DNA of 44,864 nucleotides, from the NCBI GenBank assembly GCA_020631155.1, contig JAHDHV010000008.1, forward strand, positions 1 to 44,864. Direction: 5' to 3'. Positions 8,016-36,176 of the stretch are shown here, piece after piece. Origin of the DNA: Bacteroidota bacterium. GTDB taxonomy: Bacteria; Bacteroidota; Bacteroidia; Chitinophagales; UBA2359. The first letter of the stretch is position 1. Every line of letters starts with the position of its first letter. A program made the position numbers and the translations under genes. Below the pieces are notes generated by a model that worked only from the letters and a program-made list of their open reading frames with translations, did not search any database and was not told the origin of the DNA.

Positions 8016-8050
8016 GGATAGAGAAATATTATTTGTCATTCTCAGTCTAC

Positions 8051-8359: not shown

Positions 8360-8368
8360 GTATTAGCT

Positions 8369-8629: not shown

Positions 8630-8669
8630 AGCCTTAATTGATTAGTTATTTATACACTATTCTATTTAA

Positions 8670-9774: not shown

Positions 9775-9892
9775 AACAATATAGAGGCAACCAAAAAAAA
9801 CACAAAAAAAAAGCCAACAGAACAACAGTGCCCCATCAGCTTTTTCTTTCTGCAAAATATATTATATTTAGTTTAGACAATAGATTATCCAG

Positions 9893-9927
9893 TCTTAAAT
9901 CTCATGTCTTACATCTTATATCTAACT
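9893..9927. repeat. Heptamer array at the aceA stop codon
   Basis: Five 7-bp units (TCTTAAA, TCTCATG, TCTTACA, TCTTATA, TCTAACT), the last running into the stop codon of the minus-strand aceA gene at 9927-9929. Confidence 0.75.
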
Positions 9928-11210: not shown

Positions 11211-11253
11211 ATGTTTAAAAATTTGTTTTTATATAAGTTTTTTATTTTGAAAG

Positions 11254-11326
11254 AGACATAAGATGCAAGATTTAAGACATGAGATTGTTGAATTAGGGGG
11301 AGATTAGAAGTTAGATTTTAATCTAA
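11254..11326. repeat. aceB-aceA spacer: AGA heptamer array and small palindrome
   Basis: Five AGA-type heptamers at 11254-11288, then TTAGATT-TT-AATCTAA at 11311-11326. They may mark an mRNA processing or attenuation site between the two genes, but there is no U-run and the function is unknown. Confidence 0.6.
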
Positions 11327-11332
11327 AAATCA

Positions 11333-11367
11333 ATTCGTAATTCGTAATTGATAATTCGTAATTACTA
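11333..11367. repeat. ATTCGTA heptamer array overlapping the aceB stop codon
   Basis: Five units (ATTCGTA, ATTCGTA, ATTGATA, ATTCGTA, ATTACTA). The last unit contains the complement of the aceB stop codon (11365-11367). Similar units follow other stop codons at 15006 and 30181. Confidence 0.75.
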
Positions 11368-12966
11368 AATGTGTTCATAAGCTCCAAGTGTTAAAAACTC
11401 TTTATACTCTTTTTCCAGCACCAACTGATCAAACAATTGAGTTGCCAGTTCAAAACGCCCGTTTTTAAAGCGTTCTTCGCCTACCAAAGTTTTGATTTTT
11501 TCCAACTCACCAGCCAAAAATTCTTTGTATAACTCCACTGTTATCGCACGTCCATCCTCTAAGTTGACACCGCCATCATGTAGCCATTGCCAAAGCTGTG
11601 TACGAGAAATTTCGGCGGTTGCAGCATCTTCCATCAAGTTGTAAATCGCTGCTGCCCCCACGCCACGCAACCAAGATTCAATGTACAAGATACCCACATT
11701 GATGTTTTTGCGAAGCCCTGTCTCCGTAATCGTACCTTCGGGCATTTTCAGCAAATCTTCGGTTGTAATATTTATATCTGTGCGTTTATTCTCAATTTGA
11801 TTAGGCTTAGGCATATGTTTATCAAACACATCCTTAGCTACTTGTACCAATCCCGGATGAGCTACCCAAGTACCATCGTGTCCGTCTTTGGCTTCGCGCT
11901 CCTTATCTGCGCGCACCTTCGCAATTGCAGCCTCATTCGCTTCGGGATTGTTTTTAATCGGAATTTGCGCTGCCATACCGCCCATCGCATGAACGCCTCG
12001 CTTGTGGCAAGTTTGAATCACCAACAATGAGTAAGAACGCATACAGTGTGTTGTCATGCCTACCTGTCCACGATTTGGGAAAATTCGGTTGGGGTGTGCT
12101 TTTAATTTTTTAATAAAACTAAATATATAATCCCATCTGCCACAGTTTAATCCTGCGGAATGATCGCGTAATTCGTATAAAATTTCATTCAACTCAAAAC
12201 TCGCCAAAATGGTTTCTACCAAGACCGTTGCCTTAATTGTTCCATTTGGAATCCCTAACTCTTTTTGAGCAAATACAAAAACATCATTCCACAAACGAGC
12301 TTCTAAATGACTTTCTAGTTTTGGCAAATAAAAGTAAGGTCCCGTTCCATTTTCCAACAATTGATGCACATTATGGAAGAAATACAAACCAAAATCAACC
12401 AAAGAACCCGAAAAAACTTGTCCATCTAACAACATATGTTTCTCCTCTAAGTGCCATCCGCGAGGGCGTACCATGAGCGTTGCAGTTGTCTCATTTAGGC
12501 GATAGGTCTTATTTTTAGTTGGATGTACAAATTCAATAGAGCCATTAATGGCATCTTTCAAATTAATTTGCCCTTCAATATTGTTTTTCCAAGATGGAGA
12601 ATTTGAGTCTTCTAAATCCGCCATAAATACGTTGGCACCTGAATTTAAAGCGTTGATAATCATCTTTCTATCAACAGGTCCCGTAATTTCCACACGCCGA
12701 TCCAATAGGTCTTTAGGTAGGGGTGCAACCGTCCATTCACTGTCGCGAATGTCTTTGGTTTCAGGCAAAAAATCGGGAAAAGCACCTGCATCAATGGCTT
12801 CCTGTCGTTTCTGTCGAGCAGCGAGCAAGTCCAAACGGCGTTGGCCAAATTGCTGTTGTAGTTTGGTCACAAAAGCTAAGGCTTCTGGTGTTAGAATCTC
12901 CTCATATCTTGGCCCTAACTCGCCAATGATACGCAGGGTTTCTATTGGAGTATCTATTGTTGACAT
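11365..12966 (-). CDS. aceB: Malate synthase A
   Basis: A 533-residue cytosolic enzyme that condenses glyoxylate with acetyl-CoA to malate, the second glyoxylate-shunt step. The family signature RDHSAGLNCGRWDYIFSF is intact, as are the active-site Arg region MVRPRGWHLEEKH and the C-terminal LWQWLHDGG segment. The length is typical of the A form. Start ATG at 12966. The 510-bp region to the divergent regulator gene contains candidate operators (see 13077 and 13246). Confidence 0.97.
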   Translation of the reverse strand: MSTIDTPIETLRIIGELGPRYEEILTPEALAFVTKLQQQFGQRRLDLLAARQKRQEAIDAGAFPDFLPETKDIRDSEWTVAPLPKDLLDRRVEITGPVDRKMIINALNSGANVFMADLEDSNSPSWKNNIEGQINLKDAINGSIEFVHPTKNKTYRLNETTATLMVRPRGWHLEEKHMLLDGQVFSGSLVDFGLYFFHNVHQLLENGTGPYFYLPKLESHLEARLWNDVFVFAQKELGIPNGTIKATVLVETILASFELNEILYELRDHSAGLNCGRWDYIFSFIKKLKAHPNRIFPNRGQVGMTTHCMRSYSLLVIQTCHKRGVHAMGGMAAQIPIKNNPEANEAAIAKVRADKEREAKDGHDGTWVAHPGLVQVAKDVFDKHMPKPNQIENKRTDINITTEDLLKMPEGTITETGLRKNINVGILYIESWLRGVGAAAIYNLMEDAATAEISRTQLWQWLHDGGVNLEDGRAITVELYKEFLAGELEKIKTLVGEERFKNGRFELATQLFDQLVLEKEYKEFLTLGAYEHI

Positions 12967-18979: not shown

Positions 18980-19278
18980 GGTATGTTTCATTATCATCCT
19001 AACACTTTGTCTTTAGAATTGATATTTAGTTATTTAGGCTTTTGGATTTCCAGCCTTCATAGATAAGAAATTATTATTTAATTATTGACATGGATATGTT
19101 GATTTGAATTTTAAATATCTGTAAATATGCAACGGCTAAAGCCTTCGCTACAGAACTCATTTAAAAAGAAACTAAAAAGTGCCAAAATACGAATCACTAA
19201 TCTACTAATCACTAATCCACGAGCTGTTAAAATAGCTACAAACTGTCTGGTGGAAAAGTACAGTATTTGAAACATACC
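18980..19278. mobile_element. MITE copy 2 (299 bp)
   Basis: GGTATGTTTCA at 18980-18990 and TGAAACATACC at 19268-19278. The flanking 8 bp CCCAAAAC are duplicated at 18972-18979 and 19279-19286. The interior contains the ACGGCTAAAGCC hairpin and AATCACTAATC units like copy 1. Sits just beyond the 3' end of the PD-(D/E)XK-like gene. Confidence 0.9.
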
Positions 19279-22049: not shown

Positions 22050-25000
22050 TTATTTAGACAACATTACTTTATGATATTGTACTTCGCCAGTAGTTGTGGT
22101 TAAACGAAGCATATAAATACCAGCAGCTAAGTTGTCTGCATTGAACAGTGTTTTGTAAGTTGTATTTGCCTCAACATAGCCATTAAATAGGTTGCCTACT
22201 TGAGCACCTGTTAAGCTAAATACATCTACACTTACGCGACCGCTTTCAATTGCTGAAAATTCTACAACCGTTTGAGAATGGAATGGATTTGGTGCGGTTG
22301 TGATATGGCTTTGTGCGGCTGCACTACTTACTTTTCCTCTACCGCCACCACATTGTGGAACCCAATACCAACCAAATGTTTCATCGCCAACGGAGTCGGT
22401 TACAGTTACACTATACCAACCATCTTGTAAACCAAGAACATCTTGTGTAGTTGCGCCTGTAGACCACTGATAGCTATAAGGTGGCACACCACCAGCTACA
22501 GTAATATTAATACCTGCATTGTAAGCAAATTGTGAGCTTTCACAACTAATGACATAGCTTGGGATGTCTAAGGTTGGCGTTCCTCCACCATTATCTTCTG
22601 CAATAATAACTACACAGCCAGCATCATCAGTAATGGTTAACATCCAAGTTGCGCCATCACTTTCTAATATTTTGACAAAGCCAGGAGCTAATACAGCATG
22701 TCTTACATAACCATCTGTATTCCAAGCATAGTTATAAGGTGGTGTACCATTGGTTACAGTGATTTCATAAACATTGTAGTAGAATGGTGTTACCCCACCG
22801 CTAGTACCTTGCGTTACATCTACTAGGTCATATTCTAATATGCAATCAGAATATATACAAGAGGCAGGATCGTCAATGGTTGCTATTGGATCGAAGTTGA
22901 CAGCTGTTGCATCCATACAACCTACATAGATACAATTGCCATCATCTGTTGTAGCATCAGGATCGAAGTTATCTGCTAAAGCATCTGTACAACCTGCTAC
23001 TTCTTGTTGACAAACATATGGCACGTTAACAGTTACAGAAGCACAATTGGCAGGTGCAGCTGGATTTGTTATAGTCACATCTACAGAACCCGCCTCATTA
23101 TTACCTGCTTGATAATCGCCTGATACGGTCCATCCACAACTTGTTGTCAAGGTAGCTGGGACATCACAATCACCACTTTGTACCATGAAGTTACCGCCTT
23201 CTACCAATGCAGGATGTGCATTAACGGTTCCTACAGAGCCATTAAATACTTCGCTTCCATCAGCTTCGCAAGTAGCTAGTAAGAAGAACTCATATACATC
23301 AGCCTCACAGTTCATATTTGAACCTGTACTGTATACTCTTATAGCGGCGCCTAAACCAGAGCCAAATACGCTTGGTGCGCCACCATTAACAGACACACTC
23401 CACTCAAAATTAGTAGCTGCGTCATCTGTGGTTGAAGCAGTTAAAGTAACTGATTCGCCAGCACAAACATCTGGTGCATCTATGGTCGTATTATTGTAGG
23501 TAGAAGTACAAGTTGATTCTCCTGCACATGGAACACAAATGGCACCTGTACAATTATCTATGGTTTCCATATCATTAATGGTACCTGGATCGCCATCATC
23601 ACAAGCCTGTACAGTTGTAGAGCTACAAGCAGCTACAGCAGTACCAGCACATGGCACACAGACCGCACCACCATTACAGTTGTCTATGGTTTCCATATCA
23701 TTTTCCGTACATGGGTCACCATCATCACAAGCCTGCGTTGTTGTTGAACTACAAGCAGCTATAGCAGTACCAGCACATGGTACACAAACTACTCCATCAT
23801 CATCTAAGGTTTCCATATCATTTTCTGTACATGGATCGCCATCATCACAAGCTTGCATTGTTGCACAGTTTACGGTTGTACCAGCACAAGGCACACAAAT
23901 AGCACCTGTACAAGCATCTACTGTTTCCATATCATTGTTGGTATCTGGGTCACCATCATCACAAGCCTGTACAGTTGTTTGTGTACAAGCAGCTACAGCA
24001 GTACCAGCACATGGTACACATACAGAGCCATCACATTGGTCTATGCCTTCCATATCATTTTCTGTACATGGGTCGCCATCATCACAAGCCTGCATAGTAG
24101 GAGCTAAAGTACAAGCAGCAACAGCAGTACCAGCACATGGTACACATACAGCACCTAAATCATCTAAGGTTTCCATATCATTTTCTGTACATGGGTCACC
24201 ATCATCACAAGCTTGCATAGTTGTACATCCTACAGTAGTACCTGCACATGGCACACATATAGAACCGTCACATGGGTCAATACCTTCCATATCATTGATG
24301 GTATTTGGGTCACCATCATCACAAGCTTGCATAGTAGGTGGTAATGTACAAGCAGCAACAGCAGTACCAGCACATGGCACACATACAGAACCATCACATT
24401 GGTCAATACTTTCCATATCATTTTCTGTACATGGGTCGCCATCATCGCAAGTCTGTATAGTAGGTGGTAAAGTACAAGCAGCTACAGGGTCACCAGCACA
24501 TGGCACACATACAGTACCATCTGCATCTAATACGGTTTCCATATCATTCTCTGTACATGGATCGCCATCGTCACAAGCCTGTACAGTTGTTGGGTCTGTA
24601 TCACAGTTTGCAGCAGTACCAGCACATGGCACACATACAGAGCCATCACAATCCAAAATTGTTTCCATATCATTAATGGTACTTGGATCGCCATCATCAC
24701 AAGCCTGTACAGTTGTTGCGCCATTAGTACAGTCAATAACAGTACCAGCACATGGCACACAAACAGAACCGTCACATTGGTCAACCTCTTCCATATCATT
24801 TTCCGTACATGGGTTGCCATCATCACAAGCCTGTGCAATAGGAGCTAAAGTACAAGCAGCTACAGCAGTACCAGCACATGGCACACATACAGAACCATCA
24901 CATTGGTCTATGCCTTCCATATCATTTTCGGTACATGGGTCGCCATCATCACAAGCCTGCATGGTAGGTGGTAGACTACAAGCAGCCACAGCAGTACCAG

Positions 25001-26420
25001 CACATGGCACACATACAGAACCATCACATTGGTCAATGCCTTCCATATCATTTTCGGTACATGGGTCACCATCATCACAAGCCTGCATGGTAGGTGGTAG
25101 ACTACAAGCAGCTACAGCAGTACCAGCACATGGCACACAGACCGTTGTAGCATCACAGCCATCTAATTCTTCCATATCATTTTCCGTACACGGATCGCCA
25201 TCATCACAAGCTTGTACGATATTAGCTACAGCACCAGAACAAGCAGCAGCAGGCGTTCCTGCACAAGCCACACAAACATCACCGGTACCATTACCACCTA
25301 CATCTTCCATATCATTTTCTGTACATGGGTCACCATCATCACAAGCTTGAGTAACGACACAAGACTCTACAGTTGTTGTACCTACGACCCCATCAAATAA
25401 AGTCGTATTATCCAAAGTACAAGTAATAGTCAAACTAATTTCTACAGGCACATCCGCACAAGTTGGATTGTCGAAAGTGACCGTAGCAGTAGCTGTTGTC
25501 GCACCAGTAAGGGTTGCGTTTGCAGCCCCTCCTGTAATGCTCCAAGCGAAAGTTAAATCAGCAGAAGCATTATCACTTGTGGTAGATGCTATAGTTGCAG
25601 TACCATCACAAGCGGCGGTAGCTGGCGGCGTATCTACAGAAGTGAAAGTAGGGCAAGAAGCACAGCTTGGATCGGTAGAATCAATGATGTAACAAACATT
25701 GTTGGTAGAAGTAGCATAACAAATTGGTAATCCATCATCACATTCGCCAATACCTGTTTGACCACTCAAAGTATTGATGCTATTGTTAATGATGTCTGTA
25801 ATAGATTCTAGGGAAGCATCACCACCTAATGCAGCAACTACATCGGCAACCTGCCCAAAGCCTGTAATGTCTGCACCGGAGTTGATCCCTGCATCATTCA
25901 ATGCTTGGCAAGCATCTGTACCTAAAGTACTAACTACAGCACTACAACAATCATTAGCACCACCAAGATCAGTTACACCATTTAAAAGGGCATCAACTTC
26001 TGCTTGTACTGCTGCTAGATCATAGTTGATGGCTGTTACACAAAATTGATCTCCATCTACAAAGCCTAAGTCACCAGGAGCAAATATGCCATCGGCATCT
26101 CCCCCTACAATACTAGGTCCATCAGTAGGTGCTGTCCCTACAATATTACAGGCATTTGTAACAACATATTCAACTACCCAGCCTGCAGCAGTGGCATTGT
26201 TAAAACCATCAGTAAGAGCTGGAATTGTCACTGTTTCAGTTGGGTCACATACTACCTGAGAAACAGGAGCACCCAAAGTACCTTGATCAGTACCACAATC
26301 TTGTTGAATGGTAGGGTTAGGTTCCTCACAAGGGGCAATGGGTTGAGCCATTAAGGTAGGCATAGAAAAAATGCCTAAGCAAAAAAGGAATAATAAATGT
26401 AATAATAAACGCTTATTCAT
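22050..26420 (-). CDS. Giant cysteine-rich T9SS surface/secreted protein with 15 repeats
   Basis: A 1456-residue exported protein. A signal peptide occupies about 1-25 (LLLHLLFLFCLGIFS then MPTLMAQ). An Asp/Cys-rich N-terminal region follows, then about residues 358-965 form 15 tandem units of about 41 residues, each starting QACDDGDPCTENDME with CVPCAG near the middle. Asp-rich DDGDP loops recall calcium-binding repeats, and paired cysteines suggest disulfides. After these come two GCTDALADNFDP-type repeats near 1140 and two SprB-type repeats (GGVPPYSYQWSTGATTQ). The end (about 1370-1456, PNPFHSQTVVEF to VMLSK) is a type A T9SS sorting domain, so it is secreted or anchored at the surface. 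A role as adhesin or matrix protein is inferred. Confidence 0.9.
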   Translation of the reverse strand: MNKRLLLHLLFLFCLGIFSMPTLMAQPIAPCEEPNPTIQQDCGTDQGTLGAPVSQVVCDPTETVTIPALTDGFNNATAAGWVVEYVVTNACNIVGTAPTDGPSIVGGDADGIFAPGDLGFVDGDQFCVTAINYDLAAVQAEVDALLNGVTDLGGANDCCSAVVSTLGTDACQALNDAGINSGADITGFGQVADVVAALGGDASLESITDIINNSINTLSGQTGIGECDDGLPICYATSTNNVCYIIDSTDPSCASCPTFTSVDTPPATAACDGTATIASTTSDNASADLTFAWSITGGAANATLTGATTATATVTFDNPTCADVPVEISLTITCTLDNTTLFDGVVGTTTVESCVVTQACDDGDPCTENDMEDVGGNGTGDVCVACAGTPAAACSGAVANIVQACDDGDPCTENDMEELDGCDATTVCVPCAGTAVAACSLPPTMQACDDGDPCTENDMEGIDQCDGSVCVPCAGTAVAACSLPPTMQACDDGDPCTENDMEGIDQCDGSVCVPCAGTAVAACTLAPIAQACDDGNPCTENDMEEVDQCDGSVCVPCAGTVIDCTNGATTVQACDDGDPSTINDMETILDCDGSVCVPCAGTAANCDTDPTTVQACDDGDPCTENDMETVLDADGTVCVPCAGDPVAACTLPPTIQTCDDGDPCTENDMESIDQCDGSVCVPCAGTAVAACTLPPTMQACDDGDPNTINDMEGIDPCDGSICVPCAGTTVGCTTMQACDDGDPCTENDMETLDDLGAVCVPCAGTAVAACTLAPTMQACDDGDPCTENDMEGIDQCDGSVCVPCAGTAVAACTQTTVQACDDGDPDTNNDMETVDACTGAICVPCAGTTVNCATMQACDDGDPCTENDMETLDDDGVVCVPCAGTAIAACSSTTTQACDDGDPCTENDMETIDNCNGGAVCVPCAGTAVAACSSTTVQACDDGDPGTINDMETIDNCTGAICVPCAGESTCTSTYNNTTIDAPDVCAGESVTLTASTTDDAATNFEWSVSVNGGAPSVFGSGLGAAIRVYSTGSNMNCEADVYEFFLLATCEADGSEVFNGSVGTVNAHPALVEGGNFMVQSGDCDVPATLTTSCGWTVSGDYQAGNNEAGSVDVTITNPAAPANCASVTVNVPYVCQQEVAGCTDALADNFDPDATTDDGNCIYVGCMDATAVNFDPIATIDDPASCIYSDCILEYDLVDVTQGTSGGVTPFYYNVYEITVTNGTPPYNYAWNTDGYVRHAVLAPGFVKILESDGATWMLTITDDAGCVVIIAEDNGGGTPTLDIPSYVISCESSQFAYNAGINITVAGGVPPYSYQWSTGATTQDVLGLQDGWYSVTVTDSVGDETFGWYWVPQCGGGRGKVSSAAAQSHITTAPNPFHSQTVVEFSAIESGRVSVDVFSLTGAQVGNLFNGYVEANTTYKTLFNADNLAAGIYMLRLTTTTGEVQYHKVMLSK
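23520..25349 (-). repeat. 15 tandem coding repeats of about 122 bp
   Basis: In-frame repeats encode the DDGDPCTENDME-type units of the giant secreted protein. Several adjacent units are nearly identical at the DNA level (for example around 24,850-25,130), a setup for expansion, contraction or assembly collapse. A long open frame appears on the opposite strand only because of the repeat composition. Confidence 0.95.
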
Positions 26421-26718: not shown

Positions 26719-26748
26719 TTGTAAATAGCAAAAAGGGTTTTAACTTTG
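26719..26748 (+). promoter_or_regulatory. Bacteroidota-type promoter of the acyl/glycan cluster
   Basis: TTG at 26719-26721, exactly 19 bp, TAACTTTG at 26741-26748. It overlaps a possible TTG start at 26746 and so argues that translation begins at ATG 26779. Confidence 0.75.
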
Positions 26749-26778: not shown

Positions 26779-27606
26779 ATGAGATTTTTACAAAAAAGAA
26801 GTTTAATTTTAAAAAATTCAGAGATAAATATTTTAAGTCAGACAATTACAAAAATGTTATACGGCATTTTTGCAAAACTCCAACAATCACCAAGTATATA
26901 TTTAAAGTGTATGAATCTGGGCTATTTAGGAGATACTGATTTAATTTTAAAAGAAGCAGATAAAGCGGAAAAATTACAATTTCAATTGTATCACCATATC
27001 ACTAAAACAGTTGATTTTATAGATAAAAAAGTACTAGAAGTTGGCTGTGGTACAGGTGGAGGTGTATACTTTATGCACACTTACCTACAGCCTCAAAAAA
27101 TTGTAGGGCTTGATTTAATTAAAGGGAATTTATCGCTTGCTAAAAGTCGTTATCCATCCGAAAAAATCCGTTTTGTACAGGGTGATGCTTGTGATTTTCA
27201 TTTTCCGAATGAGCAGTTTGATATAGTGGTTAATTTAGAATCTTCACATTGTTATCCTAATATGCTTGGCTTTTTAACTTGTGTTTCTAAAGTACTAAAA
27301 GAGGATGGTCTCTTTGCCTTCGCAGATATCCGAAGAGCGGAATGTGTTGCTGAACTAGAAAAACAGTTTCTGGATACTGGGTTTGTGATTATTCATCAAG
27401 AAAACATTACGCAAAATGTAGCAGACGCTTTAGTAAAGGATAATGAGCGCAAAAAACAGTTGCTTAATCAAAATTGGCTGGGAAAACGATTTTATCAAAA
27501 TTTTGCTGTTATGAAAGGTTCAGATATGTATGAAGCTTTTCAAGATGGCAGTTGTCAGTATATGCATTATTTTTTGCAAAAAACTCCTACAACACACCCA
27601 AATTAA
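26779..27606 (+). CDS. SAM-dependent methyltransferase
   Basis: A 275-residue class I methyltransferase. Motif I VLEVGCGTGGGVYF binds SAM, then an acidic strand end GLDLIKGN, QGDACDFHFPNEQFDIVVN (motifs II-III) and a hydrophobic strand FAFADIRR. It resembles phthiotriol or lipid O-methyltransferases, so the acceptor may be a hydroxyl on a lipid, polyketide or sugar. It is the first gene of the cluster and sits 9 bp before the KASIII gene, so they are probably co-transcribed from the promoter at 26719. Confidence 0.8.
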   Translation: MRFLQKRSLILKNSEINILSQTITKMLYGIFAKLQQSPSIYLKCMNLGYLGDTDLILKEADKAEKLQFQLYHHITKTVDFIDKKVLEVGCGTGGGVYFMHTYLQPQKIVGLDLIKGNLSLAKSRYPSEKIRFVQGDACDFHFPNEQFDIVVNLESSHCYPNMLGFLTCVSKVLKEDGLFAFADIRRAECVAELEKQFLDTGFVIIHQENITQNVADALVKDNERKKQLLNQNWLGKRFYQNFAVMKGSDMYEAFQDGSCQYMHYFLQKTPTTHPN

Positions 27607-27615
27607 GTACACATT

Positions 27616-28638
27616 ATGTCTATACAGGCCTATATTAAAGCCATTAGCTATTATTTGCCTCCTGATATTTTGGATAATCAAACCTTAGCAGAACAATTCA
27701 CTGACTGGACTGCTCAAAGTATTGAAAAAAAAACAGGCATTGCCGAGCGTAGGGTAGTAAAAAAAGGGGTACTAGCTTCTGATTTGGCGGTAAAAAGTGC
27801 TCATAAATTATTCGAGGAACACCATATCAACCGAAAAACAGTAGATTTTTTGCTCTTTTGTGCACAAGAATATGACTACTTTACCCCCACAACGGCTTGT
27901 GTTTTACAACAAAAACTAGAGCTTAATCAACATATAGGAGCATTGGATTATAATTTGGGGTGTTCTGGTTTTATCTATGGTCTGAGTTTGGCCAAAGGAT
28001 TGATTGTCAGTGGCATAGCAAGCAATGTTTTACTACTAACTAGTTCAACACTCACTCGTATGTTACACCCTGATGATAAAGCAACTCGCACTATTTTTGG
28101 CGATGGTGCGGCCGCTACTTTAATTAGTGCTGTTGCCTCCTCTTCTCCAATAAATAATCAGCCGCATATAGGTGATTTTATTTTGGGGACAAAAGGCACA
28201 GATGATATTATTTTAAAAAATCGCTGGGCAAGGCATCCTATGGGCAAACTAGAACCTTATGCAGATAAAAGTGGTAGTTTTAGGAGTGATGAGCATTTGT
28301 TTATGCGTGGAACGAACATCTTTGTATTTATTTTAAAAGTAGTTCCTAAAATGATACTAAGGGTTCTGGAAAAGGCTCAATTGACATTGGCGGATATTGA
28401 TTTGTTCGTTTTTCACCAAGCCAATGGCTATATATTAGAAGCTTTACGAAAAAAAATGGGAGTTCCTAAAGAAAAGTTTGTTATTCACCTAAAAAACTGT
28501 GGAAATACGGTATCTGCCAGTATTCCTATTGCTTTAGCAGAGGCTCAAAAAGCAGGAAGAGCTTATAAAGGAGCTAGAGTTTTATTAGCTGGTTTTGGCG
28601 TAGGTTTATCATGGGGGGCTACAGTGGTTGTTTTGTAA
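27616..28638 (+). CDS. 3-oxoacyl-ACP synthase III (first of two)
   Basis: A 340-residue thiolase-fold enzyme. The KASIII triad is complete: Cys116 in DYNLGCSGFIYG, His267 in FVFHQANGYI and Asn297 in NCGNTVSASIP. KASIII condenses an acyl-CoA starter with malonyl-ACP and starts chains; family members in special clusters use short starters. The clustered second KASIII, ACP and SDR suggest chain building outside housekeeping fatty-acid synthesis. The stop codon is followed immediately by a 32-bp perfect palindrome. Confidence 0.9.
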   Translation: MSIQAYIKAISYYLPPDILDNQTLAEQFTDWTAQSIEKKTGIAERRVVKKGVLASDLAVKSAHKLFEEHHINRKTVDFLLFCAQEYDYFTPTTACVLQQKLELNQHIGALDYNLGCSGFIYGLSLAKGLIVSGIASNVLLLTSSTLTRMLHPDDKATRTIFGDGAAATLISAVASSSPINNQPHIGDFILGTKGTDDIILKNRWARHPMGKLEPYADKSGSFRSDEHLFMRGTNIFVFILKVVPKMILRVLEKAQLTLADIDLFVFHQANGYILEALRKKMGVPKEKFVIHLKNCGNTVSASIPIALAEAQKAGRAYKGARVLLAGFGVGLSWGATVVVL

Positions 28639-28670
28639 CTGTTGAGAAAATTCATGAATTTTCTCAACAG
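28639..28670. repeat. Perfect 32-bp palindrome after the first KASIII stop codon
   Basis: Two 16-bp perfect arms starting CTGTTGAGAAAATTCA with no unpaired loop. It begins on the base after the stop codon. There is no clean U-run, so it could be a stabilising 3' hairpin, an attenuator or a protein-binding site. A new promoter for the ACP gene follows. Confidence 0.85.
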
Positions 28671-28706
28671 GGTTTTGGGATAAATAATCAATTATAAATG
28701 GCGCAT

Positions 28707-28739
28707 TTTGTGGACTTTAGCTTTTTAATGGTAACTTTG
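28707..28739 (+). promoter_or_regulatory. Bacteroidota-type promoter for the ACP gene
   Basis: TTTG at 28707-28710, a 21-bp spacer and TAACTTTG at 28732-28739, 40 bp before ATG 28779. It supports that start and suggests that ACP and the following genes are also expressed separately from the upstream genes. Confidence 0.6.
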
Positions 28740-28778
28740 TTATCAAACAAAATAACCGCTTACAAAAAAATAGGTAAA

Positions 28779-29018
28779 ATGCAACTAACTGAATTGGTAC
28801 AAAAGATTGCCGAAGAATTTGAGGATACACCTAAAGAGCAAATTACAGCAATAACTAAGCTTAAAGACTTGGAAGAGTGGAGTTCTATGCACGCACTTAT
28901 TATCATTGCTTTAATAGATAATCACTATGATATTATTTTAACAGGGGAAGAAATGATTGATGCTCAAACGCCTACTGATATTTACAATATCATTCTACAA
29001 AAACAGGCTAATAAGTAG
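28779..29018 (+). CDS. Acyl carrier protein
   Basis: A 79-residue ACP. The phosphopantetheine Ser lies in LEEWSSMHALIIIALID; the usual DSL is here SSM, which keeps the Ser but replaces Asp. It is acidic overall and would carry the growing acyl chain for the adjacent KASIII enzymes. The frame runs back to 28698, but a promoter box lies inside that stretch. The last codons and stop (AAG TAG) come from the end of the repeat B copy that follows. Confidence 0.8.
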   Translation: MQLTELVQKIAEEFEDTPKEQITAITKLKDLEEWSSMHALIIIALIDNHYDIILTGEEMIDAQTPTDIYNIILQKQANK

Positions 29019-29104
29019 TTGGACAAAATTAAACAACGTTTGAACTTGCCGTAAACTGTTAATAATAAGTTAATTATCTCATGTCTCAAATCTTATGTCT
29101 AAGT
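29013..29104 (+). repeat. Repeat B copy between ACP and second KASIII
   Basis: Starts AAGTAGTTGGACAAAATTAA, continues through CCGTAAACTGTTAATAATAA and ends in heptamers TCTCATG, TCTCAAA, TCTTATG, TCTAAGT (29077-29104). The outer bases AAGTAGTT and AAGTACTT (reverse) form imperfect ends. It is the minimal copy in the window and lies 16 bp before the next gene. Confidence 0.7.
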
Positions 29105-29120
29105 ACTTAATTAAAATAAA

Positions 29121-30182
29121 ATGGCTATTTTTTCAGTCCGAAATGTGCAAATAGCAGGTGTTAGTGCTTGTGTACCCAAAAATAAAGTATCTAATTTAGA
29201 CTATGATTGGATTACCCTTAAAGAGCGCAAATTATTGATTAAAACTACAGGAATCGCACATCGTCGTATTGTTCCTAAAGGCGTTTGTACTTCCGATCTT
29301 TGCTTGTTGGCAGCCGGAAAATTGCTTCAAGAACTCCACTGGCAACCACAAGATATTGATTTAATCATCTTTGTATCACAAACACCTGATTATATCTTAC
29401 CTGCAACAGCTATTATTTTGCAAAATCGCCTAGGGCTTTCTAAAAATACGTTAGCATTTGACATTAACTTAGGCTGTTCTGGTTATGTATATGGCTTATC
29501 TGTTGTAGCTAATTTGTTACAAGGTGGGCAGATGAAAAAGGCATTACTATTGGTAGGTGATACTTCTAGTGTTGGTACTTCGCCAAGAGATAAAAGTACT
29601 ACCCCTTTATTTGGAGATGCAGGTAGTTGTACTGCTTTGGAGTATTGTGATTTGCCGAATACGACTACTTTCTACAACTTACAAAGTGATGGAACAGGAC
29701 AAAATGCCATTATAATAGAAGACGGTGCCTACCGCAACCCAATTGATGAGCATTACACATTTGCTTATCAAGAGCATCAACCAGGTATTATTAGAAATGG
29801 ACAAAATTTAGCACTAGAAGGAATGGATATTTTCAACTTTACATTAAGAGAGGTTGCACCAAATATTCGCCAACTGTTGGCACATTTCCAAAAAAACTTG
29901 TCTACCATTGATTATTTTTTATTCCATCAAGCCAATTTATTGATGAATGAAAGTGTACGAAAAAAGTTGAAAATACCTAAAGAAAAAGTACCTTATAGTT
30001 TGAAAGATTTTGGCAATACAAGCTCTGCATCCATTCCCCTCACTATGGTAACTCAATTGCAAACACAGCTTACTCAACAAAAATTAAGTTTACTATTAAC
30101 AGGTTTTGGGGTTGGTCTTTCTTGGGGGTCTTGCTTATTGCAAACTGATCAAATAGCCTGCCCCGATTTGGTGGAGGTATGA
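29121..30182 (+). CDS. 3-oxoacyl-ACP synthase III (second of two)
   Basis: A 353-residue KASIII. The triad is complete: Cys119 in DINLGCSGYVYG, His269 in FLFHQAN, Asn299 in DFGNTSSASIP. It is related to but clearly distinct from the first KASIII, suggesting different starters or a heteromeric pair. Having two active-site-complete copies around an ACP is unusual for fatty-acid synthesis and suits a short polyketide or branched starter. The stop codon overlaps the first unit of a GAATTAC-type heptamer array. Confidence 0.9.
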   Translation: MAIFSVRNVQIAGVSACVPKNKVSNLDYDWITLKERKLLIKTTGIAHRRIVPKGVCTSDLCLLAAGKLLQELHWQPQDIDLIIFVSQTPDYILPATAIILQNRLGLSKNTLAFDINLGCSGYVYGLSVVANLLQGGQMKKALLLVGDTSSVGTSPRDKSTTPLFGDAGSCTALEYCDLPNTTTFYNLQSDGTGQNAIIIEDGAYRNPIDEHYTFAYQEHQPGIIRNGQNLALEGMDIFNFTLREVAPNIRQLLAHFQKNLSTIDYFLFHQANLLMNESVRKKLKIPKEKVPYSLKDFGNTSSASIPLTMVTQLQTQLTQQKLSLLLTGFGVGLSWGSCLLQTDQIACPDLVEV

Positions 30183-30208
30183 ATTACGAATTACTCGTTC
30201 CGAACTAC
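30181..30208. repeat. GAATTAC heptamer array over the KASIII stop codon
   Basis: Four units (GAATTAC, GAATTAC, TCGTTCC, GAACTAC). The first unit contains the last two bases of the stop codon. Same 7-bp family as 11333-11367 and 15006. Confidence 0.6.
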
Positions 30209-30276
30209 GAAAATATATTCCTTTTTTTAAAAAAACAAAAATCTAAGCTCTAATTGCTAACTTCCAAAAATCCAAA

Positions 30277-31029
30277 ATGTACAATCCATTTAGTTTACAA
30301 GGTAAAACTGTTCTGGTAACAGGTGCTTCTTCTGGTATAGGGCAACAAATTGCGATTAGCGTAACAAAAATGGGTGCAAAAGTTGTGATTACGGCGCGCA
30401 ATAAAGAGCGATTATTGGCTACTTACGAGCAATTAGTAGCCGAAGGACACCAATGGGTATTGGCTGATTTAGCTAAGGAGGAGGAGATAAAAAACTTAGT
30501 AAATGCTGTTCCTAAACTAGATGGTGTTGTGCATAGTGCTGGTATTATACAGCCTTTTCCTATTAAGTTTTTAAAGAAAAAAAACTTTGAGCCTATTCAA
30601 TCTATCAACTACAATGCTATTCTATTATTAACAGCAGCTTTATTAAGCAATAAAAAAATCAATCGTCAAGCTTCTTTTGTATTTTTGTCCTCTATTGCTA
30701 GTCAATATCCCTACAAAGGTGCTGCTACTTATGCAAGTACTAAGGCAGCTATAGAAGCATTTGCCAAAGTATTGGCAGTAGAACACAGTAGTAAAGGTAT
30801 TCGCTCTAATTGCTTGTCTCCGGGCATGGTTAAAACAGCCATGTATGAGCAAACAGAACAAGCCGTTGGTGCAAAGAAAATGAGCGCGTATATTGAGCAA
30901 TACCCACTAGGGGTTGGCACTCCTGAAGATATTGCTAATGCCACTATTTTTCTACTTTCTGATGCTTCCAAATGGATTAATGGCATTACTATTCGCCTAG
31001 ATGGTGGTTTATTGGCAGGTATGCATTAA
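30277..31029 (+). CDS. SDR oxidoreductase (FabG-like)
   Basis: A 250-residue short-chain dehydrogenase. The NAD(P) motif TGASSGIG (15-22), HSAGI (86-90) and the catalytic Ser138/139-Tyr152-Lys156 set are present, as is the C-terminal LSDASKWINGITIRLDGG. In this setting it would reduce the beta-keto group made by the KASIII enzymes to a beta-hydroxyl. It could instead act on a sugar. It is 94 bp after the second KASIII and 37 bp before the glycosyltransferase, so it probably shares a transcript with them. Confidence 0.9.
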   Translation: MYNPFSLQGKTVLVTGASSGIGQQIAISVTKMGAKVVITARNKERLLATYEQLVAEGHQWVLADLAKEEEIKNLVNAVPKLDGVVHSAGIIQPFPIKFLKKKNFEPIQSINYNAILLLTAALLSNKKINRQASFVFLSSIASQYPYKGAATYASTKAAIEAFAKVLAVEHSSKGIRSNCLSPGMVKTAMYEQTEQAVGAKKMSAYIEQYPLGVGTPEDIANATIFLLSDASKWINGITIRLDGGLLAGMH

Positions 31030-31066
31030 TTTTTCTGTTTATCTTTATTTTACCAAACCTCATTTT

Positions 31067-31993
31067 ATGTCTACCTCTGTTGATGTGTCTATTGTTATTC
31101 CTGTTTATCGCAGTTCCGCTACATTATTGCCTTTATATCAACGTCTTGAGACTACCTTCACCTCCCTTTCTACATCCTTTGAAGTTATTTTTGTGGATGA
31201 TTATAGCCCAGATAATAGCTGGGCAGCTTTGCTAGACTTAAAAAAAAAATACCCCAATACCATTCGCATTATACGATTGTCTAGAAATTATGGGCAACAC
31301 AACGCTACTTTTTGCGGTTTTAGGCATTGTAAAGGAAATTTGATCATTACTATTGATGATGATTTGCAAATTCCGCCAGAAGAAATTCCTAAATTGTTAC
31401 AAACTTATCAACAAACAAAAGCAGATGTGGTCTATGGGTTTTTTCCCGAAAAAAAACATACTTTTTTAAAAAGACTAGGCAGCAAAATATTGGCAAAATT
31501 GGCGCAGTGGTTGGCAAACGGACAAGGGCAAGGCTCTTCTTTTAGACTATTAACTGCCGAGTTGTTACAATCCTTAACCAAACATTATAGCAGTTTTATA
31601 TACATTGATGAATTATTATTGTGGTATACACAAAATATTGCTTTTGTTGAGGTTAAACACCTAGCCAGACAACAAGGCAGCTCAGGCTATTCTTATCTAA
31701 AACTGTTTCATCTGTTTGGCTCTTTAACCTTACTACACTCTTCCATTCCACTACGTATTCTTACTTATTTGGGCTTATTAGCCTCCTCGCTTAGTTTTGT
31801 TATTGGCATTTATTATGTGTTAATTTGGATATTTTTTGATGTCCCTGTTCAGGGTTTTACAGCCATTATTGTGAGTCTTTTTTTTATTAGCAGCCTTGTA
31901 CTATTTGCATTAGGGGTGATTGGTGAATTTTTAAGGCGAATTTACACAACTCTTAATAACCAACCACAGTACACCATTCAACAGAGTTTATAA
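31067..31993 (+). CDS. ArnC/GtrB-like glycosyltransferase family 2
   Basis: A 308-residue GT2. The N-terminal catalytic domain has VDVSIVIPVYRS, VDDYSPDNSW and TIDDDLQIPPEE (metal-binding DDD), followed by GQGSSFRLL. Two C-terminal transmembrane helices (about 230-255 and 265-290) anchor it. This is the polyprenyl-phosphate glycosyltransferase layout: a sugar from a nucleotide donor onto undecaprenyl phosphate on the cytoplasmic face. The frame extends to 31001, but ATG 31067 gives the family's normal start. It links the acyl-building genes to glycan assembly. Confidence 0.85.
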   Translation: MSTSVDVSIVIPVYRSSATLLPLYQRLETTFTSLSTSFEVIFVDDYSPDNSWAALLDLKKKYPNTIRIIRLSRNYGQHNATFCGFRHCKGNLIITIDDDLQIPPEEIPKLLQTYQQTKADVVYGFFPEKKHTFLKRLGSKILAKLAQWLANGQGQGSSFRLLTAELLQSLTKHYSSFIYIDELLLWYTQNIAFVEVKHLARQQGSSGYSYLKLFHLFGSLTLLHSSIPLRILTYLGLLASSLSFVIGIYYVLIWIFFDVPVQGFTAIIVSLFFISSLVLFALGVIGEFLRRIYTTLNNQPQYTIQQSL

Positions 31994-31995
31994 CT

Positions 31996-32096
31996 TCTTA
32001 GATATAAGACAGGAGACTTGAGATAGGAGACAATTAACTCATTATTAGCAGTTTATGGCAAGCTCAAATGTCGTTTAATTTTACCTAACTACTTAC
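31996..32096 (-). repeat. Repeat B copy after the glycosyltransferase gene
   Basis: Inverted copy of the element at 511-654 and 29013-29104. Heptamers AGATATA, AGACAGG, AGACTTG, AGATAGG, AGACAAT occupy 32000-32034, starting 7 bp after the glycosyltransferase stop codon. Then the conserved CTCATTATTAGCAGTTTATG segment and GTTTAATTTTACCTAACTAC end. Confidence 0.7.
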
Positions 32097-32319
32097 TTTA
32101 ATTGTATAATTGCTTTTTGGCTATTTAGACTTTTAGATATTTTGGAGTTTGGAAGGTTACAAAGTTACAAGGTTTTAAAGTTTTTATTTTTTTTAATGAA
32201 TTTTAAATCTAATGCTTTTTGTCTTGTTAGTCAAAAATATACAAAATTCAAAGAGGTTATTATTTTTTTTATCAATAAAATAAAAGGCGAAAAGTCAATT
32301 TAGCTCCAAACTCTAAGAT

Positions 32320-32515
32320 ATTTAGCTACTAGAAATTAGCGATTAGAGATCAGAAATTGGAAATTAATTTTTGAGCTTTCTTGTAGCTATCAATTTTTGA
32401 TTGTTAATTCTTTATAAGAGCTTTAACGGCTAAAGCCTTCGTTACAGAAATTATTAAATAAGAAAAACTCCATCAAAAAAACACCTAATTACGAATCACT
32501 AATCTACGAATCAAC
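32320..32515. mobile_element. Internal MITE fragment without terminal repeats
   Basis: Nearly identical to the interior of MITE copy 4 (GCGATTAGAGATCAGAAATT, TTTTTGAGCTTTCTTGTAGC, ACGGCTAAAGCC), but neither GGTATGTTTCA nor its complement is present. It is a decayed or deleted copy. Confidence 0.75.
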
Positions 32516-32607
32516 GTTCAAAATAATGATCGTTTAATCCAATCAGCACTTTTGAATTGAAAAAAAGCTCAATACATTATTGTCAACTTAATTTTATACA
32601 TCCATTT

Positions 32608-33282
32608 ATGAGAATCGAAAAATATGGTATTACCTTACACCGTCTGACAGCTTCCGATTTAGAATTGGTACGTCATTGGCGAAATCATCCCAAAATTCGT
32701 CAATTTATGATTTATCAAGAGCATATTACAAAAGAGATGCAGCAACAATGGTTTAAGAAAATTAATAATAAATTTAATTTCTTTTTTGTTATTGAAATAA
32801 AAGGAAAAAAAATTGGTTTGATTGATGCTAAAAACATCAATTATGAAAAAAAATGTGGAGAGTCGGGCATGTTTTTATGGGATGAACAGTTTCAAGGCAC
32901 CCATTTTACGCCCTGTATTTCTATGTGTATTTCCGACTTTGGCTTGCTTTTATTGCAAATAGAAACGGTCTACATTAAAGTAAATAGAAACAATCCTAAA
33001 GCCATTCAATATTATAAAGATTATGGACATGTATTGTATGAAGACGATTTAAGTAAGACTTATCAGCTATATACACTAAGTCAAAAAGATTATACAAAAA
33101 CATCGGATAAACTTAAACATACCCTTCAAAAAATGTTCCCTGCTCCTCCTCAAATTGTTCTTGAAGCCCATGATGCTGGTACAGATTATGCTCAATTGGT
33201 AAGCTCACAATATAAAGCACAACTTCCTGATATTCAGTCATTATTCACACTAATTGATGAATCTAAGGACAATAACACCTAA
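32608..33282 (+). CDS. GNAT N-acyltransferase, PseH-like
   Basis: A 224-residue protein. The N-terminal 160 residues are a GNAT domain (ITLHRLTASDLELVRHWRNH, FFFVIEIKGKKIGLIDAKNI, VNRNNPKAIQYYKDYGH) of the kind that acetylates or acylates 4-amino groups of nucleotide-linked deoxysugars, as in PseH and FdtC. About 60 C-terminal residues have no recognised domain. In this cluster it could transfer the short acyl chain from ACP or CoA to an amino sugar. The frame runs back to TTG 32557, but ATG 32608 is the natural start. Its 3' end overlaps the MaoC gene by 20 bp tail-to-tail. Confidence 0.8.
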   Translation: MRIEKYGITLHRLTASDLELVRHWRNHPKIRQFMIYQEHITKEMQQQWFKKINNKFNFFFVIEIKGKKIGLIDAKNINYEKKCGESGMFLWDEQFQGTHFTPCISMCISDFGLLLLQIETVYIKVNRNNPKAIQYYKDYGHVLYEDDLSKTYQLYTLSQKDYTKTSDKLKHTLQKMFPAPPQIVLEAHDAGTDYAQLVSSQYKAQLPDIQSLFTLIDESKDNNT

Positions 33283-33760
33283 GTTCAAATATGCCTTCAC
33301 AAGCGACTTGTAATGGTTCTTTGAGTTCAATGATAACTTTTAGAGTATAGTTGGCTATTTTTCCCTTTTTTTCAAATTCTAACAAAGTCACACGCCCTCG
33401 AACCCAACTATCCACAGGCACTACATTCCGAAATCGTATCTGCTCCATCCCATAAGTAATACCTAAAGTAGCACCTTTAATTTGATAGGTTTCATAGCAA
33501 AATTTAGTTACTAAAGACAAAATCAAAAAGCCATGTGCAATGGTTGTTTGGTAAAGCGATTCTTTGGCTGCTTTTGTGGGGTCTGTATGAATCCATTGCT
33601 CGTCTTCGGTGGCTTTGGCAAAACTATTGATCCGCTCTTGGGTAATGTGTATCCACTCACTAATCCCTAGTTCTTTTCCCACATAATCTTGCATCTCTGA
33701 TAATGTTTCAAAAAAAGTGCTATAGGCTTGTGTTATTTCTTCTTTGTTTTTTTTATTCAT
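33263..33760 (-). CDS. MaoC-like hydratase/dehydratase
   Basis: A 165-residue hot-dog protein. The hydratase motif is complete: Asp53 and His58 in TEDEQWIHTDP, and IAHGFLILSL following. MaoC-family enzymes add water to or remove it from enoyl or hydroxyacyl thioesters. It could process an intermediate of the acyl cluster or act in beta-oxidation. It is convergent with the GNAT gene and overlaps it by 20 bp. Upstream lies a long-hairpin element. Confidence 0.85.
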   Translation of the reverse strand: MNKKNKEEITQAYSTFFETLSEMQDYVGKELGISEWIHITQERINSFAKATEDEQWIHTDPTKAAKESLYQTTIAHGFLILSLVTKFCYETYQIKGATLGITYGMEQIRFRNVVPVDSWVRGRVTLLEFEKKGKIANYTLKVIIELKEPLQVACEGIFELRCYCP

Positions 33761-34190: not shown

Positions 34191-36176
34191 ATGGGAACAA
34201 GAAAAAAAACAAAAAAAGAAGGTTCAAAAAAACAAGCAAAACTAAAAGTAAATACCATTCCTAAGTATCTGTTTGAGTGTATTATATTCGCTTTTTGCTT
34301 TTTGATTTATGCCAATACTTTACAACATGATTATGGCTTTGATGATGAATATGTCACCCATAAGCACCCTTATGTAAGCCAAGGTTTAAAAGGGATTCCA
34401 GACATATTAACCAACCAATATATGCAAAATGATAACTTTGAAAGAACAGGGGGCTATCGTCCTATTACCATGCTCACTTTCGCCTTAGAACACCAATTCT
34501 TTGGAGCAAATCCTCAAATTAGTCACCTGATCAATGTCATTTTATATGGTTTAGCTTGCCTTATTTTGTTTTTTATACTCAAAAGCATATTTGCCCAATA
34601 TTCTCCCCTATTTTCTCTCCTAATCACCTTATTATTTGCCGCCTACCCTTTACATACCGAAGTGGTCGCCAGTTTAAAAAATAGAGAAGAATTACTGGTT
34701 TTTATAAGTGGTATGGCAGCTACATGGTTCTTTCTACAATATTATTTACACAAATCTAATAACAAAAATCATTTGATAATAGGCGTTCTCTGCTTTATTA
34801 TCGCGTTATTTTGTAAATTAAATGCCATCGTCTTTGCTTTTACCATCCCACTCACATTGTACTATTTTGCCAATTTAAGCTTAAAAAAAAGCATGATGTG
34901 GATGGCTTTTTTAGGTAGTTTTATGTTATTAGTCGCTTTCGCCATCTTTATTACTGCTGATGAGCCTATAAGTACCAAAATTTATTACATTGAAAATCCC
35001 CTTAGTGAAGAAAAAAGTATATTCAATTATTTAGCTACTGTTTTTTATATATTGGGCTATTATTTAAAAATGCTTATCCTCCCCTACCCTATGATGGCTT
35101 ACTATGGTATTGGTAAAATAAATGTTGTTGGTTGGGATAACATATGGGTTTGGGGATCGCTTTTATTGCATCTTGCTCTAGGGGTGTACTGTTTTTTATT
35201 TTTTCAAAAAAAACAACTATTTACCTTTCTTGGTCTATATTATTTGGCTAATATTTCCCTTTACAGCAGTTTGTTTACGCCCGTACCCGGTATTGTTGCT
35301 GATCGTTTTTTATTTATCCCTGCCCTAGTGTTATGCATCAGCTTAGTCTACTTGTTATGTAAACTGTTTAAAGCTAATCTTAGCAATACCGCTACTTTGT
35401 GGACACCTCCTCAGCTTAAAGTAATTGGACTTGTTGCCCTACTCTTAATGGTATATAGCTACCTTACCATAGACCGCAACAAAGATTGGAAAGATACTTA
35501 TACCTTACTTTCTAAAGATATTCAATATTGGGATAATGCCGCAGTAGGGCAATATTTATATGCCAATATTTTGATGCTTCAAGCGCAAAATACCAACTCA
35601 GAAGTGGAAAAGAAAAAATTTGCTCAACAAGCCATTCTACATTACGACAAAACCCTAGCTTTATTTACTGGTAATGTCGAAGCTATGCGAAACATTGGAC
35701 ATATTTATTGTAAATATTTTGATAATCCCGAAAAAGGCTTGCCCTATCTCAACTTAGCCCTCAAGATTGATTCTCTTAATTTTAATACCAATTACAAAAT
35801 GGCGAGCTGCTATAGAAACAGCAAGCAAATAGCTAAGGCTCTACCACATTTTGAAATTTATTTAAAGAAAAGAAAGGAAGATATTGAAACTAGAACCAAG
35901 TTGGTTGGCGATTATTGCGGAACTGGAAATATAGCTAAAGCGGAGGAACATGCCAACACCATTCAACAGCTAAAGCCAGAAACCCTAGAAAGTTATATGG
36001 CGCAAGGCACTTTGCATCTTTGTAAGTCAGATACAATAACAGCTAATCAGTATTTTGAAAAGGCTGTGCAGTTGAACCCACAGGGACTAAAAAATTTGGC
36101 GAGAATGGTTGCTGGCTTTTATCAAAAACAGGGCAATATAGAAAAGGCACAGTACTATTGGCAACTATCAAAGTAG
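34191..36176 (+). CDS. TMTC-like membrane protein with C-terminal TPRs
   Basis: A 661-residue protein. A basic N-terminus precedes about ten or more transmembrane helices (roughly 25-430), with a first extracytoplasmic loop holding YGFDDEYVT, the acidic motif of GT-C/TMTC-type glycosyltransferases, and GGYRPITMLTFALEHQFFG. The last 200 residues form about five TPR units (AMRNIGHIYCKYFDNPEKGL, NYKMASCYRNSKQIAKALPH). TMTC proteins are protein mannosyltransferases in animals; bacterial members are uncharacterised as far as I know. A glycan role would fit the neighbouring cluster. A pair of inverted CCAATCCCAA / TTGGGATTGG arms follows the stop codon. Confidence 0.8.
   Translation: MGTRKKTKKEGSKKQAKLKVNTIPKYLFECIIFAFCFLIYANTLQHDYGFDDEYVTHKHPYVSQGLKGIPDILTNQYMQNDNFERTGGYRPITMLTFALEHQFFGANPQISHLINVILYGLACLILFFILKSIFAQYSPLFSLLITLLFAAYPLHTEVVASLKNREELLVFISGMAATWFFLQYYLHKSNNKNHLIIGVLCFIIALFCKLNAIVFAFTIPLTLYYFANLSLKKSMMWMAFLGSFMLLVAFAIFITADEPISTKIYYIENPLSEEKSIFNYLATVFYILGYYLKMLILPYPMMAYYGIGKINVVGWDNIWVWGSLLLHLALGVYCFLFFQKKQLFTFLGLYYLANISLYSSLFTPVPGIVADRFLFIPALVLCISLVYLLCKLFKANLSNTATLWTPPQLKVIGLVALLLMVYSYLTIDRNKDWKDTYTLLSKDIQYWDNAAVGQYLYANILMLQAQNTNSEVEKKKFAQQAILHYDKTLALFTGNVEAMRNIGHIYCKYFDNPEKGLPYLNLALKIDSLNFNTNYKMASCYRNSKQIAKALPHFEIYLKKRKEDIETRTKLVGDYCGTGNIAKAEEHANTIQQLKPETLESYMAQGTLHLCKSDTITANQYFEKAVQLNPQGLKNLARMVAGFYQKQGNIEKAQYYWQLSK

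Follow-up and report, generated by a model that had tools for sequence, protein, structure and literature searches.

The 44,864-nucleotide stretch analyzed here (the window) makes up all of contig C218 in the draft genome (6.5 Mb) of a member of the Bacteroidota. Between positions 26779 and 33282 its plus strand encodes a methyltransferase, a β-ketoacyl-acyl carrier protein synthase III (KASIII; KS1), an acyl carrier protein (ACP), a second KASIII (KS2), a short-chain dehydrogenase/reductase (SDR), an ArnC/GtrB-like family 2 glycosyltransferase (GT2) and a PseH-like GNAT acyltransferase. Judged from sequence, this cassette appears to be a known acyl-sugar mini-pathway in a variant form, in which the GNAT and the ArnC-like GT2 replace a PglD-like enzyme, a TMTC-like glycosyltransferase is often added and WecE is the likely source of the sugar. 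We see an even chance that the product of the cassette is an N-(3-hydroxyacyl) amino sugar, which it transfers to a lipid carrier. What the sequences show directly are the genes with their active-site residues, the conservation of the operon and its associations with WecE and with TMTC-like genes.

The genes concerned are the following.

26779–27606, plus strand: S-adenosylmethionine-dependent O-methyltransferase (Methyltransf_11/25)
27616–28638, plus strand: KASIII-1, KS1 (PF08541/PF08545; PRK09352 above cut-off; triad C116/H267/N297)
28779–29018, plus strand: dedicated ACP (phosphopantetheine Ser36 in WSSM)
29121–30182, plus strand: KASIII-2, KS2 (PF08541/PF08545; triad C119/H269/N299)
30277–31029, plus strand: SDR (PF13561; GASSGIG; Ser139/Tyr152/Lys156)
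31067–31993, plus strand: ArnC/GtrB-like GT2 with C-terminal hydrophobic helices, a predicted polyprenyl-phosphate sugar transferase
32608–33282, plus strand: PseH/FdhC-like GNAT N-acyltransferase, below the PseH cut-off
34191–36176, plus strand: TMTC-like GT-C glycosyltransferase with C-terminal tetratricopeptide repeats (TPRs)

In the proposed scheme the acyl chain would be built on the dedicated ACP, with KS1 and KS2 joining acetyl-CoA and malonyl units and the SDR reducing the keto groups to give 3-hydroxybutyryl- or 3,5-dihydroxyhexanoyl-ACP. The GNAT would then acylate the 4-amine of a nucleotide sugar with this group. The likeliest sugar is dTDP-4-amino-4,6-dideoxygalactose (dTDP-Fuc4N), made by RmlA, RmlB and WecE, which are encoded elsewhere in the genome. 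The GT2 would shift the acylated sugar to undecaprenyl phosphate and, after flipping, the TMTC-like GT-C might pass it to an acceptor in the periplasm or on the cell surface, which could be a protein. The methyltransferase would O-methylate the sugar or the acyl chain.

An earlier note, made from the sequence alone, had proposed the core of this scheme, namely a hydroxyacyl maker, a GNAT and a lipid-carrier GT2. This core withstood all computational tests that were run, and every gene named in the note was found where it had been placed. The edges needed correction: a MaoC gene drops out, the TMTC-like GT-C, which lies just beyond the interval considered in the note, is probably to be included, the methyltransferase becomes an accessory and Fuc4N can be proposed as the sugar.

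Enzymes of the cassette

The window contains triad-bearing KASIII enzymes with a single ACP, followed by a ketoreductase. The Cys-His-Asn triad was kept in 47 of 47 aligned KS1 sequences and in all 102 KS2 sequences, and Tyr152 and Lys156 of the SDR in 74 of 74. Ser36 of the ACP was invariant in the 24 family members. Active sites had been described as complete, and this was borne out for KS1, KS2, the SDR, the GT2 and the ACP, whose residues are intact and kept across aligned relatives; only the ACP motif, previously read as D-S-L, is in fact W-S-S-M. The Pfam PP-binding family PF00550 was matched at some level by 20 of the 24 ACPs (best value 3.6e-6), and a longer ACP open reading frame starting at 28698 is probably spurious. 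KS2, with relatives of about 44–60% identity in Bacteroidota and outside, is the core gene of the cassette. KS1 is the probable enzyme of the first condensation and the SDR, by its sequence motifs, a probable 3-oxoacyl-ACP reductase. The sequence would be compatible with one condensation as well as with two.

The GNAT scored 64.8 bits against the PseH equivalog model (cut-off 93.1), and three further GNATs from related loci of type II (see below) reached 47–68 bits. The best match of a profile of 28 GNAT sequences in the PDB was FdhC (5kta, E = 4e-14). An AlphaFold model of the GNAT (pLDDT 89.7) had PseH (4ri1) as its closest fold, with E = 1e-12 and a TM-score of 0.78 by target length. FdhC has been named as the 3-hydroxybutanoyl transferase for dTDP-Fuc3N (PMC4869667). 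From the profile being closest to FdhC and the fold closest to PseH, N-acylation of a sugar with a hydroxyacyl group is expected. The window enzyme, which shares fold and sequence family with these two, differs from them in falling below the PseH cut-off and in a variable C-terminal extension. Its donor is suspected to be acyl-ACP rather than acyl-CoA, as inferred from the linked ACP gene. The start at 32608 was chosen from aligned relatives instead of the TTG at 32557.

The GT2 has the features of the polyprenyl-phosphate enzymes of the GtrB/ArnC kind, that is, acidic metal-binding residues, a C-terminal membrane region and alignability over the full length. Its acidic residues D45, D97 and D99 were kept in 51 of 51 sequences. 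Against the ArnC equivalog model it scored 167 bits, far under the cut-off of 529, but the family profile aligned nearly full-length to the solved structures of GtrB-like sll0501 (E = 2e-68) and ArnC (E = 2e-67). Consequently, transfer to undecaprenyl phosphate is expected.

In most loci of the same kind (type II, defined below) the GT2 and GNAT genes overlap by 1–7 bp or abut within 10 bp, which indicates a shared task; they appear to be usually translationally coupled. The earlier description of the gene order as compact thus fits the window less well than most relatives: here the two genes are 614 bp apart, an outlier among type II loci. Short intergenic runs (for example TCTTACG and TACGAATCACTAATC) recur between genes at 570–650, 11332–11363 and 19188–19222 of the window. 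Similar-looking text occurs in the cassette spacers near 29080, 30180 and 32000–32500 and may account for the wide gap.

Two characterized or predicted systems come close to the acyl part. The O-polysaccharide of Flavobacterium psychrophilum carries a 3,5-dihydroxyhexanoyl amide on Qui2NAc4N, for which its authors proposed a fatty-acid-like pathway and predicted wfpCDEF as the genes (PMC6519341). This organism had already been named as a precedent for the chemistry, and the gene order agrees as well: in wfpC-wfpD-wfpE-wfpF-wfpG two ketoacyl-ACP synthases flank one ACP, followed by a ketoacyl-ACP reductase and a sugar N-acyltransferase, and KAS-ACP-KAS-KR of the window matches wfpCDEF. WfpG, however, is PglD-like and its gene lies in an O-antigen cluster with pglE/pglF, whereas the window has a GNAT acyltransferase, an added ArnC-like GT2 and no adjacent nucleotide-sugar gene. 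We agree with the earlier note that the whole window is free of nucleotide-sugar genes.

The viosamine island of Pseudomonas syringae comprises vioS (KASIII), acp, vioR (reductase), vioB (acyltransferase) and vioM (methyltransferase) together with vioA and vioT; its product is N-(3-hydroxybutyryl) viosamine, and deletions of vioR and vioM altered the flagellin glycan as seen by mass spectrometry (PMC3927599). With its KASIII, ACP, ketoreductase, N-acyltransferase and methyltransferase it makes a 3-hydroxybutyryl amide of a dTDP-4-amino-4,6-dideoxyhexose and serves as a genetic precedent for the cassette. In contrast to the window, the island has a single KASIII, a VioB-type acyltransferase and an aminotransferase of its own, and it uses the nucleotide sugar directly on flagellin rhamnose, whereas a lipid-carrier route is proposed here.

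For the later steps the ArnC-ArnT and GtrB systems offer a parallel, with a GT2 producing a polyprenyl-phosphate sugar and a GT-C enzyme acting after it. The window GT-C is TMTC-like with TPRs and not an ArnT, and its sugar is predicted to be N-hydroxyacylated while that of the ArnC-ArnT route is N-formylated.

Two kinds of related operon

The neighborhoods of the KASIII pair, whose mapping the earlier note had suggested, were compared in 98 loci. They came from a search with KS2 through 61 relatives and a collection of named genomes, which gave 18 stretches and 80 named loci. Genes were labeled with hidden Markov models built for the analysis and by Pfam/NCBIfam scans of representatives. Two kinds of operon were found. 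In type II a GT2 and/or GNAT gene lies beside KS2; in type I a DegT and/or PglD-like gene lies beside KS2 without such a GT2. After removal of duplicates and fragments there were 48 type II, 24 type I, 2 mixed and 16 untyped loci (several of the latter at contig ends), and 2 without a KS2 call. The window is of type II. In place of an N-acyltransferase of the hexapeptide PglD/VioB type it has the GNAT, as do most type II relatives. Of the 24 type I loci 21 had a PglD-like gene and of the 48 type II loci none, which is not independent evidence since the types are partly defined by these genes.

Four other markers are independent of the type definitions. The p values for them were computed without correction for phylogeny. 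Genes for an Asp/Asn beta-hydroxylase were found in 13/48 type II against 0/24 type I loci (p = 0.003) and for a sulfotransferase in 15/48 against 0/24 (p = 0.001), while Rieske oxygenase genes showed the opposite distribution (2/48 against 16/24, p = 2e-8). The fourth marker is the TMTC-like GT-C (14/48 against 0/24, p = 0.003). In the KS2 tree the type I and type II sequences each clustered, yet with several gains or losses apiece. Thus, partner genes were probably exchanged more than once.

Genes for sugar metabolism or sugar modification, whose absence near the relatives the earlier note had set as a sign against its reading, were found: DegT and PglD-like genes in type I loci and WecE in five loci of the GT2/GNAT type. 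Relatives of the cluster occur in about fifty other genomes and point to a sugar-decoration system that is reusable and largely undescribed. A literature search, which did not reach subscription papers, found no earlier description of the GT2/GNAT-type cassette. Four families that are mostly investigated separately meet in this one recurring cassette, namely KASIII pairs, GNAT sugar acyltransferases, ArnC-like GT2s and bacterial TMTC-like GT-Cs.

The MaoC gene (33263–33760, minus strand), which had been counted as a member of the cassette, has no counterpart in the 48 type II relatives. This result and its location on the opposite strand rule it out of the pathway.

Further features of the relatives were recorded. 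At L103 (around 6964–12000), L081 and L098 there are at least three KASIII genes together with repeats of the SDR or ACP gene, so that the KASIII gene count may determine how many condensations take place. In L093 and L105 a WecE-linked GT2/GNAT block has beside it, downstream of GNAT, c12 and Wzm, a tandem row of five oxygenases belonging to a single cluster (PhyH by Pfam). Fe-dependent oxygenases recur beside the cassette, with AspH, Cupin_8/JmjC and Rieske genes at other loci in addition to PhyH. The cluster c12 is a conserved protein of about 300 amino acids encoded beside type II blocks at 12 loci (for example L055:14781–15686); it had no Pfam match, shows a possible DxD-like motif (TNVDI) and is possibly an undescribed glycosyltransferase. 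Two type II blocks (L089 and L109) come from metagenome-assembled genomes (MAGs) of Moraxellaceae and Alcanivoracaceae. Their KS2 sequences are nested among those of Bacteroidota in the tree, which suggests inter-phylum transfer or misbinned contigs.

Candidate acceptor route, sugar and acyl chain

The motif residues D52, Y89-R90-P91, K209 and R372 of the TMTC-like protein were invariant in alignments of 13 and of 15 sequences; D51 was kept in 13/13 sequences of the one and 13/15 of the other. The motifs used for comparison (DD, YRP, Lys, Arg) were taken from the description of the TMTC O-mannosyltransferases, which likewise combine a GT-C N-terminus bearing these motifs with C-terminal TPRs (PMC7801869). 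The window protein differs from them in being bacterial and linked to a predicted acyl-amino-sugar donor. Pfam TMTC_DUF1736 was matched by 8 of 12 aligned members (best value 3.7e-7), and the family assignment rests on the motifs together with Pfam. The match list of a fold search with the protein was dominated by the TPR part, and the N-terminal profile had no sequence match in the PDB.

TMTC-like genes occur about once per 1.15 Mb over 16 genomes, with five copies in the genome of the window. From this density about 1.6–3% per locus would be expected near type II loci, far less than the 14 of 48 observed. Since TMTC-like enzymes would take a polyprenyl-phosphate sugar and the GT2 would supply one, the TMTC-like GT-C is the probable user of the lipid-linked sugar. 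Prokaryotic TMTC homologues are typically not yet well characterized (PMC7801869), and for one group of them the cassette offers a candidate donor. A wider proposal, to which we assign a low probability, is a bacterial TMTC-type protein glycosylation. Its donor would be undecaprenyl-phosphate-linked Fuc4N with an ACP-built hydroxyacyl amide. How long and how hydroxylated the acyl tag becomes would depend on the KASIII count, and Fe-dependent hydroxylases, sulfotransferases and methyltransferases, where present, would modify it further.

The lipid-linked sugar might instead decorate lipid A or a polysaccharide in an ArnT-like or GtrC-like manner, the TMTC-like neighbor in the window being a coincidence. 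ArnC works with ArnT on lipid A, and genes for Wzm, flippase-like proteins, sulfotransferases and acyltransferases lie beside some type II loci. TMTC-like genes are moreover multicopy and accompany only 14 of the 48 loci. Their excess over the density expectation and their absence from the 24 type I loci speak against coincidence, and we regard this explanation as rather unlikely.

The enzymes of the dTDP-Fuc4N pathway are encoded in the genome of the window: WecE on contig C304 (573 bits, cut-off 375), RmlB on C36 (462 bits, cut-off 365) and RmlA on C381 (467 bits, cut-off 361). Six GT2/GNAT-type loci have a DegT gene inside or nearby, and in five of them (L050, L053, L093, L105 and L109, but not L058) it is a WecE ortholog, 44–61% identical to WecE of the window's genome. 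The copies of L053, L093, L105 and L109 passed the cut-off of NF008687, and that of L050 is interrupted by a contig end. The five loci belong to separate lineages, among them an Alcanivoracaceae MAG. No WecE ortholog was found in type I loci, whose DegT proteins are 24–33% identical to WecE of the window's genome and scored best with the DesI, LegC or PseC models. Among the 61 relatives WecE occurred in 14 of 16 genomes with a KS2 block and in 18 of the 45 others (p = 0.0012, kinship ignored); among 197 class-level genomes the figures were 30/42 with the GNAT and 42/155 without (p = 4e-7, kinship ignored). dTDP-Fuc4N made via WecE is therefore probably the sugar, as our best though uncertain guess, and WecE provides a lead for GT2/GNAT-type loci without a nucleotide-sugar gene. 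The presence or absence of DegT by Pfam was rejected as a marker, as all 16 genomes have several, and an ortholog-level search for WecE was used.

In 30 relatives the WecE neighborhoods, inspected for about 1.5 kb on either side, were mostly unlinked to the cassette. The WecE gene of the window's genome (G000:C304, L123) adjoins a divergent KASIII gene (PRK09258-like, below cut-off) and a sulfotransferase-like gene.

The same cassette may act on another amino sugar, such as UDP-Qui2NAc4N, a pseudaminic-type intermediate or carrier-linked glucosamine, with WecE as an incidental companion. The fold of the GNAT is closest to PseH, which acts on UDP-4-amino-AltNAc, two further groups of DegT genes are present in the window's genome (on C632 and C36) and the type I relatives use different aminotransferases. 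An incidental association is harder to reconcile with WecE genes in five GT2/GNAT-type loci of separate lineages and in none of type I, and we consider another sugar unlikely.

Several observations weigh against the scheme of an acylated Fuc4N that is handed via a lipid carrier to a TMTC-like enzyme. At the threshold used 12 of the 42 genomes with the GNAT lacked WecE, which is thus not universal to type II GNATs, and some of these genomes may use another sugar. The window's own TMTC-like protein matched TMTC_DUF1736 below threshold (0.017) and shares only about 25–32% identity with block-linked copies. Its gene lies beyond MaoC, in all about 0.9 kb away from the cassette, and the closest relative of the protein (34% identity, genome G002) is encoded on a contig other than those with KS2. 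The window ACP reached 17.2 bits with PF00550 (cut-off 20.8). SDR and KS1 are missing from several type II loci, where either a different acyl chain or help from housekeeping enzymes has to be assumed. The missing phylogenetic correction of the p values also counts here, and all chemical steps, the sugar and the acceptor are ones that we infer.

Some KASIII homologues act as acyltransferases, and KASIII-ACP-KASIII sets with such members occur in antibiotic pathways. One KASIII of the window could similarly hand on a finished acyl group, as enzymes of the CerJ/ChlB6 type do, leaving the GNAT with a different task. Both KASIII enzymes retain the condensing triad in all relatives, though, and most typed loci include a dedicated N-acyltransferase of the GNAT or PglD-like kind. 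The kept triads, together with Tyr and Lys of the SDR, favor decarboxylative condensation and ketoreduction over an acyltransferase role, which we hold to be quite improbable.

A free lipid, pigment or signal unrelated to glycans (a small polyketide or N-acyl amine) is very improbable: KASIII, ACP, SDR and GNAT could in principle yield an N-acyl amine, and DarB/StlD-type scores are present but very weak, whereas in most relatives the GT2 gene overlaps or adjoins that of the GNAT, type I loci carry genes for a sugar aminotransferase and a PglD-like enzyme instead, and the conserved set lacks KAS II, a chain-length factor and an aryl-polyene-type dehydratase. Aryl-polyene, flexirubin and resorcinol products were rejected, there being only the weak StlD/DarB scores and no partner genes.

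Methyltransferase, promoter-like sites and other parts of the window

The methyltransferase was distantly related to the mycobacterial phthiotriol and Mtf2 O-methyltransferase models (172 and 153 bits, under the cut-offs), and its best PDB match was a D-glucose O-methyltransferase (E = 7e-11). Its gene ends 9 bp upstream of KS1, and the two genes are probably cotranscribed. A methyltransferase was found in 1 of 48 type II relatives (L057). It is probably an accessory enzyme that methylates the sugar or an acyl hydroxyl; VioM of the viosamine island is a parallel.

Two promoter-like sites were located in the cassette region.

26741..26748, plus strand: TAACTTTG, a Bacteroidota-type -7 box (TAnnTTTG), about 30 bp upstream of the methyltransferase start
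28707..28739, plus strand: promoter-like TTTG-N21-TAACTTTG, just upstream of the ACP gene

The octamer alone is within chance, as 24 of 100 shuffles attained an equal count. The composite TTTG-N18-22-TAnnTTTG had 9 matches in the window against 3.6 expected (2.5-fold), and none of 100 shuffles attained 9.

Upstream of the cassette, positions 22050–26420 of the minus strand encode a secreted protein of 1456 amino acids, in whose gene a 126-bp tandem repeat (Cys-rich, CDDGDPCTENDME...) occurs about 13 times. The C-terminal domain of the protein resembles a type IX secretion signal.

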